In this document: one piece after another, positions 13,581 to 26,000 of the stretch
Layout of the letters: every line of letters starts with the position of its first letter
Position numbering within the stretch: the stretch's first letter is position 1
DNA from: Diacronema lutheri
Lineage: Eukaryota; Haptophyta; Pavlovophyceae; Pavlovales; Pavlovaceae
Reading direction: 5' to 3'
Length of the DNA: 64,000 nt
NCBI GenBank assembly: GCA_019448385.1
Contig: JAGTXO010000001.1
Location: 2,542,001-2,606,000, forward strand
Translations under genes and position numbers: made by a program
The notes under the pieces: generated by a model
What the model was told of the DNA's origin: nothing
The model's database searches: none
Seen by the model: only the letters and a program-made list of their open reading frames with translations

Positions 13581-14126
13581 ATGCATCCAGTGTTCGCATA
13601 CGGCAGCTTGATGTGGCCGGATGTGCTCGAGGCATTGTTGGGCCGCGTGCCCAGGGCCATGCCAGCTTGCCTGCCAGTGGGTTTTGCGCGGCGCCGTGTG
13701 CCTGGGCAACCTTACCCCGGCCTCGTCAAGAGCACGACGCAGGCAGTCGGCGCGACACATGGGCTTCTGCTTGCAGACCTCGTCGATGCCGAACGCGCCA
13801 TCCTCGACGCGTTCGAAGGCGATGCGTACGAGCAGCAGCCTGTCGAGGCGAGGCTCGTACGCGGCGTGGATGCGCCATACGCGTGGGCGACCGCGTCCGC
13901 GCGCCGCGACGCGTCGGCTCTCACTCTGAGCAAAAGTGAGACAGCAGCGGTGGCGTACCTGTGGCGGGACGCGGCCGCGCTGCAGCCTGAGCTGTGGGCA
14001 CCGGAAGAGCATTTTGCGCCGCACTTGCTCGCGTGGACAGCGATGTGCAAGCGCTTTGCCGTCGAGCAGCCGGGCGTCAGTGACATGCGGCGTGCGGCGG
14101 AGGCACAGCGCGCGGCCGATGCATAA
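13581..14126 (+). CDS. AIG2/GGCT-like gamma-glutamylcyclotransferase-fold protein
   Basis: One exon, 181 aa, starting at 13581 (MHPVFAYGSLMWPDVLEALL). The YGSL motif of the cyclotransferase fold is at residues 7-10. It is followed by LPVGFARRRVPGQPYPGLV and the acidic-site region LLLADLVDAERAILDAFEGDAYEQQPVEA, whose glutamate in DAFEG.EY is the expected catalytic acid. Members act on gamma-glutamyl amines or peptides and release 5-oxoproline; for the AIG2-like plant branch the substrate is often unknown. It lies between divergent POP5 and the same-strand selenoprotein K gene. The upstream in-frame extension to 13407 lacks family similarity. Confidence 0.85.
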   Translation: MHPVFAYGSLMWPDVLEALLGRVPRAMPACLPVGFARRRVPGQPYPGLVKSTTQAVGATHGLLLADLVDAERAILDAFEGDAYEQQPVEARLVRGVDAPYAWATASARRDASALTLSKSETAAVAYLWRDAAALQPELWAPEEHFAPHLLAWTAMCKRFAVEQPGVSDMRRAAEAQRAADA

Positions 14127-14290
14127 ATTGCAAAGCGGGTCAGAAGTCAGTCGGCTCGCGGCTCGCTCCGCGGCGGTTGCGATCGGCCAGAGGGAGGGCG
14201 GCGAGGGTGTGTACGCCAGCCGACATTGTGTCAGTCAGAAGTCAAAGTCAGAACGAAATCGTGACCCGCTGGACGGGCTGTCTGGGCGCC

Positions 14291-14554
14291 ATGGATCGGC
14301 CGCCTGTGCACATCCGCAACGGCAGCGTGACGGTCGCGCCGTGGTGGCACGCTTTCAGCCCGAGCAAACTCATACAGCTCATCGTGCTCTTCTTCCAGAC
14401 GCTAACGTCGCCTGACTCCGCCGCGATGATCCGAGCAAGGAACGCCAACCCGAGCGCCGCGCGCGCGCCAAAGCCTCCGGCGGGCCGGCCACTCGGCGGC
14501 AACGTGCGCACGCTCAACACGCGCGACTGCGGCGCGGGCGGGTGAGGATCGTAA
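14291..14554 (+). CDS. SELENOK: Selenoprotein K with in-frame TGA (Sec)
   Basis: 87 aa if TGA 14543-14545 is read as selenocysteine and TAA 14552-14554 is the stop. The protein starts MDRPPVHIRNGSVTVAPWW, then a membrane segment SKLIQLIVLFFQTL, then a Gly/Pro/Arg-rich cytosolic tail ending GNVRTL....CGAGG-U-GS. This is the SELENOK plan: a single-pass ER protein with a VLFF.TL helix and Sec two to three residues from the end after a Gly run. SELENOK works with p97/VCP and DHHC6 in ERAD and acylation in animals. The start at 14291 is chosen because it gives the usual HI.NG start; the frame is open upstream to 14177. The hydrophobic stretch is shorter than in human SELENOK. A SECIS-like fold follows 62 bases after the Sec codon. 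Confidence 0.8.
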
Positions 14555-14601
14555 ACGCGCGACGGCTCCGGCCTTCGCGCGCCCCACGCTCGCACAGCTG
14601 C

Positions 14602-14676
14602 ACTCCAGGCGTTTATGACGCGCGCCGCCGAGGGGCTTTCAAAAGCCTGGCGTCGCGCCGAGATCTGAGCCGCGCG
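14602..14676 (+). promoter_or_regulatory. Candidate SECIS element of selenoprotein K
   Basis: The core has ATGAC (14615-14619) on the 5' side and CGAG (14659-14662) on the 3' side, which gives the UGA/GA non-canonical quartet. Between them a helix of about ten pairs, GCGCGCCGCC with GGCGTCGCGC and one mismatch, carries an apical part with an AAAA run at 14641-14644 and a small GGCTTT/AAAGCC stem, as in form 2 SECIS. A weak lower helix (CTCCAG with CTGAG) flanks the core. It lies on the sense strand in the 3'UTR. The fold was paired by eye. Confidence 0.65.
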
Positions 14677-14908
14677 CCCGCCCCGCGCGGGTGTCGCGCG
14701 CTTCGCCGCCTGGACACACGTGCACGTGCGAGCACCCGCGTTTTGCGCACGATTCGCGCGCGCGCTGATTGCACGTGTGATCGGAGCAAGCTCATGAAGT
14801 TGCCACGCATGTCACTCACTGGCCGCAGCTGCCTGGCGACGCTCTGCCGAGGGACGTGGTTTTCTGTTTTCAGGCTGATGAGCGTCCCCACCCCGAGATA
14901 CGCGCACA

Positions 14909-17049
14909 TTAGGGCAGCAGCTGTGCCCGGCCATCGGCCACGATGAGCGCCGGCGTCGCGTGAGCACGGCCGCTTTGTGCGGTTGAGGCAAGTGGCATGC
15001 CGCCGTGTTGGCGCGCGGCCGACGGGTCCGCGAGAGGGCCGCCGTCTCGCTTGACGGGCACACTGCCGTTGCCGCCTGCTTGCGCGGCGCTCGGGCGCAC
15101 GGCCGGAGCCGGCCCGCTCGCGAGCCGCATCATGCTCTCATCGGCGAGACGCGCACACGAAGCGGCGGCCGCGGCGTGCAGCAGCGCGTGTGCGGTAGCC
15201 TCGCCATTGCCGCACGGCGCGTTGCCGCCATTTTCTCCTCCGCCGTCCGTAGGCGCAGCGTGCCCCTCCGCCATGTGCTGCTTGTGCCCGCCCGCGTTGG
15301 ACCCGGCCTCGAGTTGCGCCGCTGCGCAGCGCGCGCGTGCGCTCGGGTCGCGCATCGCCACGAGTGCGTCGACGTGCTCCTGCGCGCGCTCCTGCAGCTG
15401 CGTGCGCGTAAGATGAACGCCGGCCTGTGCGGCGGCGTGCGCCACATTCGCCATCGCCTCCTCCAAATCGGCCTTGTCCCACGTCCGGCGCAACCGTGCG
15501 AGCGCGGCGTCCTCGGCGCTCGACAGCCGCGCCATCTCCTCCTCCTCGGCGCACAGCGCGAGGAGCAGCTCGTCGTCGCGCGCGCGCCTCCGCCGCTTGT
15601 GCGCCTCGCGCTCGAGCTCGTCGCGCAGCTGCTGCTCGTGCAGCTCGGCACGCCGCCGCGCCTCCTGCGCGGCGCGCGGCGCACACAGCGAGCGGCGAGC
15701 GGCACAGCAGCGCGGAACGCCGACGGCGAATCGGCGTGGCGCGCACGCGCCGGCCGAGGCGGCGGCGTGGGCCCGCTGCACGTGGGGCGCAGCACGCGCG
15801 CGGCCGCGGCCGGCGAGCGCGGCGCGCAGGCGGCGAGGGCATGCGCCGCAACGCGGGGTACGAAACGCTCTTGCGCTTGCGCGCCGCGCGCACCTGCTCC
15901 TCCACCGCAACCTTTGACTGGCGCTCGGCCTCGAGGATCTGCTGCCGCACCGACAGCCGCTCGCGCCCCCGCGGCACGGCGTGCCGCTCGGCCTGCTTTG
16001 CGCGCCGCTCGCGCGCGGCTTCTATCGGCACCACCTGGTCGTCGAGCAGCGCGCTGAGCGCAGTGCGCAGCGCCATCGCCGCCGAACCCTTGCCCGTGCC
16101 CGCCGTCGTGAGGAGCGCGCGCCATTCGGCCGAGCATGTGGCGACGGTCTCCCACCCGCCGCATCCGACCGTCGCCGGCGCGGGCGCGGCCAAGTCCGGC
16201 GACGTCTGTGCGGGCACAGCCGCGCCCCCTGCGCCCTTGTCCGTCGGCTTGGAAGAGGTCTCGCGGAAGAGGCACGTGTCGCCAAACCAGTAGTAGGCGC
16301 GTCGGCAGCTGTCGTGCCCGATCGGCGATGCGCGCTGCACGGCGTCACGGCGGCGCAGATCGGCGGTGTGGGCGCGCGGGCGTGGGCGTGGCGCACCCAA
16401 TGGCCGCATCCGTCCGTGCGCGCGCGCGCGTGCGTCGGAAGGCGCTGGCGAGCTAGTGCGCGCGGGACGCGCCGCGACGCCGCACGTCGGTTGGCCAAAG
16501 CTCGCTGCGCGCGCGCACCATTGCGTCGGCTGTGCCGTCGAGGTGCGTGAGCTCGGAGACCTCGCACGGTGGCGCGGCCGCGTTGCAGTGCGCGAGCAGC
16601 AAGGCCAGCCGCTCGGCCGCGCTCAGCTCGGTGTAGCCGACCGCCGCCGCAAGCCTGCTCGCGAGCGCTGTGTCGAGCCGAATCAAGCCGTCCGAGGCCT
16701 GCTTGCGCAGCTCTGTGTACCAGCTCTCGCCGTCGGGGCGCGGGGCGTCCGTGCCCGGTCGGAGAAGCTTCCAATGCAGATCGGGTAGCGTCGCCGTGCT
16801 CGCGCCGCCCACGCCCGGTGTCGCCGCGGAGAGCGCAGACGGGTCGCCCAGCGCCTTGTCCAGCTCGTCGCGCGAGAGGGGCGCGAGCTTTAGCATCGGC
16901 CCAAAAATGTGCACGAAGTGCACGCACGCGCACCCCTCTCGCGTGTGCGACAGCCGTTGTCCCAACTTTGCCTCAGAGGCCCCGCCAGGCTCGGTGGCGG
17001 ACCCGCCAGGCTTGCGGGCCGATTCGCCACCCTGCTGCATCGCGGCCAT
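14909..17049 (-). CDS. DDT/WHIM-domain chromatin-remodelling-type protein
   Basis: Three exons: 17049-16519, 16334-15894 and 15664-14909, about 575 aa. Both introns begin GTGCGC and end GCAG and are phase 0. Exon 1 has a DDT-like helical region (CVHFVHIFGPMLKLAPLSRDELDKAL, then LHWKLL and LSAAERLALLLAHC). Exon 2 opens with the WHIM signature RRAYYWFGDTCLFRE, followed by GWETVATCSAEWRALL. These motifs occur in ISWI-partner proteins (ACF1/WSTF/RSF1/CECR2 types), where they bind the remodeller and linker DNA. The rest is a long charged helix, probably coiled coil (EARRRAELHEQQLRDELERE), with a Gly/Ala-rich tail. No PHD or bromodomain is seen. A donor a little downstream of 15894 (GTTTCG) is possible. 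It is divergent from the MSS51-like gene. Confidence 0.68.
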
Positions 17050-23000: not shown

Positions 23001-26000
23001 ATGCGACGTGCCGCGCTGGTCGGAGCAGGCGCGCGCGCCCGCCACCAACGCCACGGCTGCCGCCGCCAGCGCCATGCGCGGCGGCGAGAAGGCGACGCGC
23101 GGTGACGACGACGGCGGCGCGCGCGCGCTGCTCGGCCCGTTGAGCGTGCTGGCAACGGGCGCGGCATTCGCCACCAGCCCGGCCGTGCGCGTAGTGGGCA
23201 GCGACGGCGAGCCGCTCGGCCGCGTGCCCGTGCAGCTGCGGCTCGCGCCCCTCGCGGGCGCCGGGATGGGCGCGCGGCTCGCGCCGCGTGCGCCCGCCCT
23301 CCGCTGGGCGGAGGCGCGCGCCGACGCTGCGCCGTGCGAGCCGACCGTGTACGGCGGCGTGTGCGCGCTCACGGGCGACGACGGCATCGCGCGCTTCCCC
23401 GCGCTGCGCCTCGTGGACGGCGGCGGCTCGGGCGCGCACGCTCTCGAGGCGCACGCGCTCGGCGTGCGCGCGCCCGCGCACGGCGCGCGGCTCGCCGTCG
23501 CGAGCGCGCAGGCGCCCGACCCTGCCGCCACCCTCGTGCTGCTCTTCGTGCAGAGCCGCGCGTTCCTGCTCCTCACGCTCACCGCGATCCCGCTCCTTGC
23601 CGCCAACCGGCCTTGGGCCATGCGCCGGTCGCCGCAGCCCGACGCCGCGCGCGGGCGCGCTGCGGCGGCGGCGGCGGCGGCGGCGTACGCCGGCCGGCGC
23701 GCGCTCGTTTGGCGCGCGCCCGTCGTCGCGGGCGCGGCGCTCACGCTCGCCGCGTGGCTTTGCTGGTGCATCGCGGTGCTGCGCGCGCCTGACCGCACCC
23801 TCGCCGCCGGCGCGTCGCAGCCCCTCGGCTTCACCGAGGAGGACATCGTCGCGGCGCGCCCGGACGCGGCCGAGGCGGCCGATCGCGAGTCGATGCTGCC
23901 GGCGATGCGCGCGGCGCTGCTCCTCATCTGGGCGCTCATCGCGACGGACGCACTCGCCGTTGCGGCGCGCCCCTTTGTGCGCGCGCACGTGCGCGCGCGC
24001 GAGGCCAGCCGCGCGGGCGGTGACGCTTTCTCGTCGGCGGCGAGCGCGAGGCGAGGCGCGTCGGTGACGCGCCGGCGCTGCTCGACCGCGCTCCGCGCGG
24101 CGCGCAATGGCGCGTGGCGGCTGCTTGACGCGCTCACCGAGACGCACGCCGAGCGCCGGCTGCGCGCGGCGAAGGCGCACGTCGCCGCGCTCTGGCGGCT
24201 GCGCGACGGCGACCGCGCGCAGCCGGCCTTGCACGCGGCCGCGCTCGCCGTCGCGCGCCGCGCGGCCGTCCTGGCGACGGCGTGCGCTGTGGCCGGTGGC
24301 GCGCTCGCGAGGGCCGTGCGCCGCGCGCGTCGCGCGAGCGCGCTGCGCCGCCGGCGTGTCTCGCGCGCGGCCGCGCGCGCCGAGCACGGCGGCGGCGACA
24401 GCGACGGCGGCGACGAAGAGGAGGAGGCGACGGCGCGGGAGGGCGATGGACGAGCAGTGGTAGGCGCCGAGCGCGACGGCGATGGAGCCGCTGCAGCCAC
24501 CGACGACACGGAGGATGGGCTTGATGGCGCACGACGTGCACGGGCGTGCGCATCGCCGCCGCTGCCGCCGACGGTCTCGCGCCACACGTCGCTGCTCGGC
24601 GTGCTTGCGCGCCCGCCGCTTGCGCGCGCGCGCCTACGGGGCCCGCGCTCGGAAGGCGCGTCCAGCGCGCTGCTGCTGCTGCGCGTCGCGCCGTCGGCCG
24701 GCAGCGCGCGCCGGTACGCGCCGACGCCGTACGACTCCAATCGCAACACGGAGGCCGACGAGGACGAGCACGACGTGCCCGACGGGCGTCGGCAGGAAGG
24801 CGCGGACTTTGATTGGCGCGGGTACATCGAGGCCGCGACGCCGTCTACGCCCGCTGTGCCCTCCGCACCCGCCATGCCCGCTGGCGTGGCGCGCGCTGCG
24901 GGCGACACGGGTCCGGCGCTGAGGTGCATTGCTGACGCGCCGGGCACGGGCAGCGTTCCCGCGCGGACGGGCGCGGACGCTGCGAGCGCAGTCGCCGCTC
25001 TCGCCGCGGAGGACTCGTCATCGCCCAGCGACACGGACGATGGCGGCACTGCAGGCAACGGTGCTTACGGTGGCGGTGGTTGCGCTGATGGCGATGGCGT
25101 GGCTCCGCCCATGCTGCGCTCGCGCTGGGCGGCGCGCGACGTGGCCGCGCGCGCGCATGCGCGCACTGCTGCGGCCGCGGCCGCCGCCGCGGATGCTCAG
25201 GTGGCGGGGCGGGTGGAGGCGTACGGCGCAGAACCGGCTGGGAAGGGCGGCGGTGCGGACAGGAGCGCGCCGCCGCGCTCGTCGCCGCGATCGCTCTCGC
25301 CGCCCGCGACGCCGCCGCCGTCGCCGCCGCTGCATGGCGCGCCGCCGCTCCTGCCACCACGCGCACTGCCTGCCCCAGGCGCGCGCGTGGCCGCCCCGCA
25401 CCGGCCGCCGCCGCCGCCGCCGGCGGCGGCGCCGGCGCTGGTACCGCCACCCGCCACCCACACACTCAGCTCGACGCGCACGCGGCATGACGTGGCTGTC
25501 GACCTCTCCTCCACGCGCGGCGCGACGCTCAAGGCGGCACGCGCGCCGCACCTGCCGGCGGCCGTGCGCGCGCCTGGCGACGCGCAGCTGTACGTGCTGC
25601 ACGTGGACGAGCGGTGGAGAAGGCGCGCGCAGCATGGCGGCGCATCGCTTCGGCCGACTGCAGGCGCAGCGCGTCGCGTCTTCATCGCCGCTGCGCGCGC
25701 GGGCCGAGCACTCGCCGCCGACGCAGCCGAGGCGCTCGGCGCGCGCGCGCCGAGTGCACTCGCGCCGCGCGCGTGCGGCGACGGCGTCGGTGGCGTCGGC
25801 GCGCGCGGCCGCGGCGCGCGCGAGAGCCCTGCGCAGGTGCGCGCGTGGCTGCGCGCTCGCGCGTGCGTTATGCTGCCGCAGCGGCTGCTGATGGCCCTCG
25901 CGCTGAGCGCTTGGGTCGTGTGGCTGCTCACGCTCTGCCTCCTCTCCGCTGCGCGCTGGGTCGACGCGGCGGTGGGCGAGGCGATCGATGACGCCGCGGC

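Follow-up and report, generated by a model that had tools for sequence, protein, structure and literature searches.

A selenoprotein K gene with a predicted selenocysteine codon and a SECIS-like hairpin carrying AG at the apical position in the haptophyte Diacronema lutheri

Members of the selenoprotein K (SELENOK) family have one N-terminal membrane segment, an endoplasmic reticulum (ER) location with known partners and a selenocysteine (Sec) residue close to the C-terminus in a Gly-rich context. An algal survey lists SELENOK among the families found almost exclusively as the Sec form (PMC7539508). The published SECISearch rule reads NTGA-(10-13)-AA-(15-39)-GA, with AA or CC accepted (PMC2375036). 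Vertebrate SECIS elements usually carry AA, CC being found in mammalian SelM and SelO, and the exact role of the apical AA pair is described as not known in the same article (PMC3316567). A survey of tRNA-Sec genes reports four copies in each of three eukaryotes with compensatory changes demanded; for the diatom Fragilariopsis cylindrus it gives eleven non-identical predictions, of which nine are free of disrupting changes (PMC5330540). The D. lutheri genome paper gives 37 tRNAs for the 20 standard amino acids, and the word start "seleno" occurs 0 times in the main text of that paper (PMC8379373). No earlier description of selenoproteins in Diacronema, Pavlova or Pavlovales is found among the literature matches listed.

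The stretch of D. lutheri DNA analysed here (64 kb, hereafter the window) contains a short open frame downstream of a gamma-glutamylcyclotransferase-like gene (13581-14126) on the same strand (Table 1). The bin 14001-16000 has a GC content of 0.72, within a range of 0.55 to 0.83 over the window. The frame opens with ATG at 14291, and only GGA TCG stands between the in-frame TGA and TAA. When the TGA at 14543 is read as Sec, the C-terminal end is CGAGG-U-GS followed by TAA, with Sec third from last in a product of 87 residues, exactly as a first-pass annotation had claimed. Standard annotation would shorten the gene at this TGA. The locus is very probably a nuclear SELENOK gene, in which the UGA at 14543 would be read as Sec85 by way of a SECIS-like hairpin in the 3'UTR. 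In the proposed mechanism, the ribosome would reach this UGA, and the hairpin at 14615-14662 would recruit Sec-decoding factors, bringing Sec-tRNA. The codon would then be decoded as Sec85, and translation would stop at the UAA two codons on. The product would be a small, probably ER-membrane protein with Sec in its Gly-rich C-terminal tail. Actual insertion of Sec at this codon is presumed from these features, and the ER location and function of the product are presumed by analogy with the family.

Table 1 Features of the SELENOK locus (window coordinates), of two further AG-type elements (coordinates within their loci) and of other genes whose TGA falls at the Sec motif of their family
Feature	Position or count	Strand	Basis
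SELENOK coding sequence, one open frame, 87 residues, predicted Sec at 85	14291..14554	+	reading; Pfam SelK_SelG E 5e-4
In-frame TGA, predicted Sec85	14543..14545	+	sequence reading
TAA termination codon	14552..14554	+	sequence reading
SECIS-like element, extent matched by models	14607..14670	+	R1 25.3 bits, E 4.8e-5; R2 17.4 bits, E 0.0039 (rough E-values)
SECIS core 5' side, ATGA	14615..14618	+	sequence reading
Helix II, 14620-14629 with 14649-14658, 9/10 pairs, enclosing the apical part	14620..14658	+	fold
AG at offset 12 after ATGA, usual SECIS place of AA	14631..14632	+	offset reading
Apical ministem GGGCTT/AAGCCT with UCAA loop, holding the A run	14633..14648	+	fold
SECIS core 3' side, CGAG	14659..14662	+	sequence reading
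GPX SECIS-like element with AG	L009 2018-2063		
SELENOU SECIS-like element with AG	L049 1972-2017		
GPX with TGA at Sec motif	n = 2		
SELENOT-like with TGA at Sec motif	n = 2		
SELENOW with TGA at Sec motif	n = 1		
SELENOM-like with TGA at Sec motif	n = 2		
SELENOF with TGA at Sec motif	n = 2		
MSRA with TGA at Sec motif	n = 2, plus inverted copy of one		
TXNRD with TGA at Sec motif, ending GCUG	n = 2		
SELENOU with TGA at Sec motif	n = 4		

The hairpin has the core of a eukaryotic SECIS element with a helix of about ten pairs: ATGA lies at 14615, 69 nt downstream of the Sec codon, the GA of the core lies at 14660, and 9 of 10 positions of helix II are paired. The fold announced by the first-pass annotation, some 60-70 bases on with ATGAC opposite CGAG and a helix of about ten pairs, is thus recovered. 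The 5' apical bulge is GAG, and the ministem has six pairs. The apical A run that had been pointed out also exists, as AAAA at 14641-14644, with two of its four bases paired in the ministem and the others in its loop. However, this run does not represent the AA motif of a SECIS, the place of which is taken by AG; the first AA after ATGA 14615 comes only at offset 22. Because AG occupies the AA position, the published rule misses the hairpin. The rule gives 0 matches on 14546-15600, so by this criterion that stretch has no canonical SECIS elsewhere downstream of the gene either. Because neither AA nor CC stands at the apical position, the hairpin is filed as SECIS-like in its putative function and not as a canonical SECIS.

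The hairpin exceeds chance expectation by stem score and by the first of the covariance models described below. Among hairpins that open with ATGA and have GA 38-59 nt further on, the SELENOK hairpin reaches a stem score of 27.5 and is one of two scoring at least 26 on both strands of the window. Its folding energy is ordinary (64 nt, z -0.27, 75 of 200 shuffles equally good), as is that of longer stretches (67 nt, z -1.07; 90 nt, z +1.55; 136 nt, z +0.11). At a GC content of 0.72 this may be expected, so folding energy is uninformative here. An Infernal search, which the first-pass annotation had proposed as a check, gave with Rfam no SECIS call either on the 64 kb window or on the 3'UTR. Because the Rfam model SECIS_1, the one Rfam SECIS family searched genome-wide, finds nothing on the whole genome, the silence of Rfam on the SELENOK hairpin means little.

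In the families searched, which give a partial selenoproteome, TGA stands at the family Sec motif in 17 genes besides SELENOK, classed by Sec motifs and subfamily names that we take to hold for these families. Homologues without TGA at the Sec site are also present, e.g. GPX L010 and L013 and the Rdx protein L014. Four SELENOU/AhpC-TSA_2 genes (L045, L046, L048 and L049) have TGA within a GUxxC motif. Because this motif lies just upstream of the Pfam match, the search table has no TGA inside the SELENOU matches. Two MSRA selenoprotein genes lie head to head at C3:331119-332221 (L031-L034), with identical scores for the matched exons and for the SECIS-like elements; either the pair arose by inverted duplication not long ago or it is a palindrome of the assembly. 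In the SELENOM-like gene L018, the Sec TGA is followed by a long open frame, and a SECIS-like hairpin lies inside this frame. The stem scan found no convincing 3' SECIS for L018, which is outside the 17 elements described below.

A SECIS-like element was assigned to 17 of the 18 genes, SELENOK included and L018 excepted. The elements were hand-picked from the stem scan by score, ATGA or GTGA core, nearness to the stop codon and apical A's; 13 were measured by offset computation, and the four SELENOU offsets were read by eye from the scan. AA stands where the rule places it, at offset 10-13, in 10 of 17 elements, a count biased upward because four picks (L015, L019, L020 and L046) are below the top scan match of their locus. 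AA at offset 14 is found in three elements (L015, L019 and L048), AG at offset 12 or 13 in three (SELENOK, GPX L009 and SELENOU L049) and CC at offset 12 in one (SELENOU L045). Without gaps, helix II pairs poorly in L019 (6/10), L015 (7/10) and L039 (7/10). AG at the SECIS apical position is not mentioned in the passages of literature compared, a non-exhaustive set.

Covariance models were built from the genome's own elements, and MAFFT alignments with helix II gaps or misplaced rows were kept out of them. Model R1 was made from four elements (GPX L011 and L009, SELENOW L016 and SELENOF L020), SELENOK being left out. At E up to 10, it matched 8 places in the 64 kb window, with the SELENOK hairpin on top (25.3 bits, E 4.8e-5, the E-values of both models being rough by the tool's own statement) and a runner-up at 11.8 bits. 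Outside the training set, it scored the elements of SELENOT L017 (21.6 bits), MSRA L031 (22.2) and TXNRD L042 (20.4), and also those of MSRA L030 (17.4) and TXNRD L039 (13.6); over the window and 20 loci, it missed L015, L019 and L021. Its non-SECIS matches were of 16.1 bits, on the strand opposite the MSRA elements (L031 and L032), and of 10.5 bits, in L018. Because the training member L009 itself has AG, the four elements chosen for model R2 (L011, L016, L031 and L020) were all of the AA type. R2 gave 12 matches in the window, again with the SELENOK hairpin first (17.4 bits, rough E 0.0039) and the next at 24117 (15.4 bits), and the AG element of L009, kept out of its training, scored 30.1 bits. 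Over the window and 29 loci, R2 reported the untrained elements of L009, L021, L030, L042, L048 and L049 and missed those of L015, L017, L019, L039, L045 and L046. Its best match outside the assigned elements, 19.3 bits, lies within the coding part of L045. Because of this match and the small lead of the hairpin, R2 alone is suggestive but not decisive.

These scores bear on the possibility that the TGA is a plain stop, in which case the SELENOK-like product would have 84 residues and no Sec, and the hairpin would be a GC-rich stem formed by chance. The 84-residue version without the read-through tail scores 20.6 bits against the SelK_SelG profile, and the version with X for Sec scores 20.9 bits. 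Because the score barely changes without the tail, the family match tells little about the Sec codon itself. A plain stop would also agree with the ordinary folding energy of the hairpin for its composition, with the absence of the AA motif and with the non-SECIS match of R2 at up to 19.3 bits elsewhere. However, both R1 and R2 rank the hairpin at the top of the 64 kb, and it begins 69 nt past the TGA. Furthermore, two more Sec genes have elements read as AG-type, and algal SELENOK is almost exclusively of the Sec form in the algal survey (PMC7539508). A plain stop is thus highly improbable, and readthrough of UGA 14543 as Sec85 is preferred.

The Pfam search of the full product matched a single family, SelK_SelG (PF10961; E 5e-4), aligning residues 26-84 of the 87 with positions 27-85 of the 86-position profile. 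The expectation of the first-pass annotation that SELENOK would be the best family holds in that no other Pfam family was matched, but support for the family is thin, the score of 21.1 bits being 2.2 bits below the curated cut-off of 23.3. SelK_SelG was matched by 0 of 10 shuffles of the product. A PF10961 profile search of the whole genome (43,492,796 bases in 103 contigs) reported no match at E 0.001, and a search of viral contigs for SELENOK gave 60 stretches fitting a pattern, none of them a relative. The most hydrophobic 19-residue segment, residues 21-39, has a modest Kyte-Doolittle mean of 1.22, the membrane segment of animal SELENOK being longer and more hydrophobic. The 43 residues from 45 onward contain 7 K/R, 1 D/E and 7 G. 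Membership of another family with the same decoding, such as a SELENOS-like or unnamed small Gly-rich membrane selenoprotein, would suit the sub-threshold score, the modest hydropathy and the silent genome search, but it is very unlikely in view of the sole Pfam family and its span, the unmatched shuffles, and a length and C-terminal Sec that fit SELENOK.

The reading of the locus as SELENOK with a Sec TGA, put forward by the first-pass annotation, is borne out by the sole, if sub-threshold, Pfam family, the Gly-rich tail, the hairpin at 69 nt and the Sec genes of the genome. The working selenocysteine system that it implied is likewise consistent with the tRNA-Sec, SelD and SepSecS genes present. 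The genome search found SepSecS exons (E 1.5e-47 and 1.8e-45) and SelD (E 2.6e-38), which has Cys in the stretch GGCGAK, presumably the site at which Sec may stand in other selenophosphate synthetases. By gene content (tRNA-Sec, SepSecS, SelD and the 17 sister genes), D. lutheri is predicted to decode Sec, and EFsec, SBP2 and PSTK are presumably present. Nine complete copies of tRNA-Sec above the cut-off lie in tandem at C19:159090-160638 (L003), of which seven are identical and two are one base off them, together with a truncated tenth copy. The array units are 181-184 bp long, and their spacers, of 94-97 nt, vary from unit to unit. Nine copies are rare, yet not without parallel, because the survey reports a similar number of predictions for F. 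cylindrus (PMC5330540). Because seven of them have the same sequence and the other two are a single base away, the Diacronema copies would go uncounted under the strict criterion of that survey.

We suggest, with rather more doubt than belief, that the SECIS apical motif of Diacronema is relaxed from AA to A-purine, as AG in SELENOK, one GPX and one SELENOU, that finders undercount its selenoproteins, and that Sec supply is boosted by the nine-gene tRNA-Sec array. The AG elements are natural SECIS-like hairpins in which the second apical A is lacking. Should they prove functional, gene finders would be applying too strict an AA rule to this lineage. The SELENOK case is also a sign that a sequenced haptophyte has a selenoproteome.

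What is unusual in this case is the AG variant, together with the array of tRNA-Sec genes. The SELENOK of Diacronema is ordinary in kind, and its hairpin is slightly off the standard SECIS. Like selenoprotein K (PF10961), the product has about 90 residues, a hydrophobic segment near the N-terminus and a basic tail with Gly and Pro in which Sec is third from the end; it differs in falling 2.2 bits short of the Pfam cut-off and in a putative membrane segment that is shorter and less hydrophobic than that of animal SELENOK. In the same way, the hairpin shares the ATGA/GA core, a helix II with 9 of 10 pairs, the 5' apical bulge and the ministem with eukaryotic type II SECIS elements, whereas its apical bulge carries AG instead of AA (or CC).
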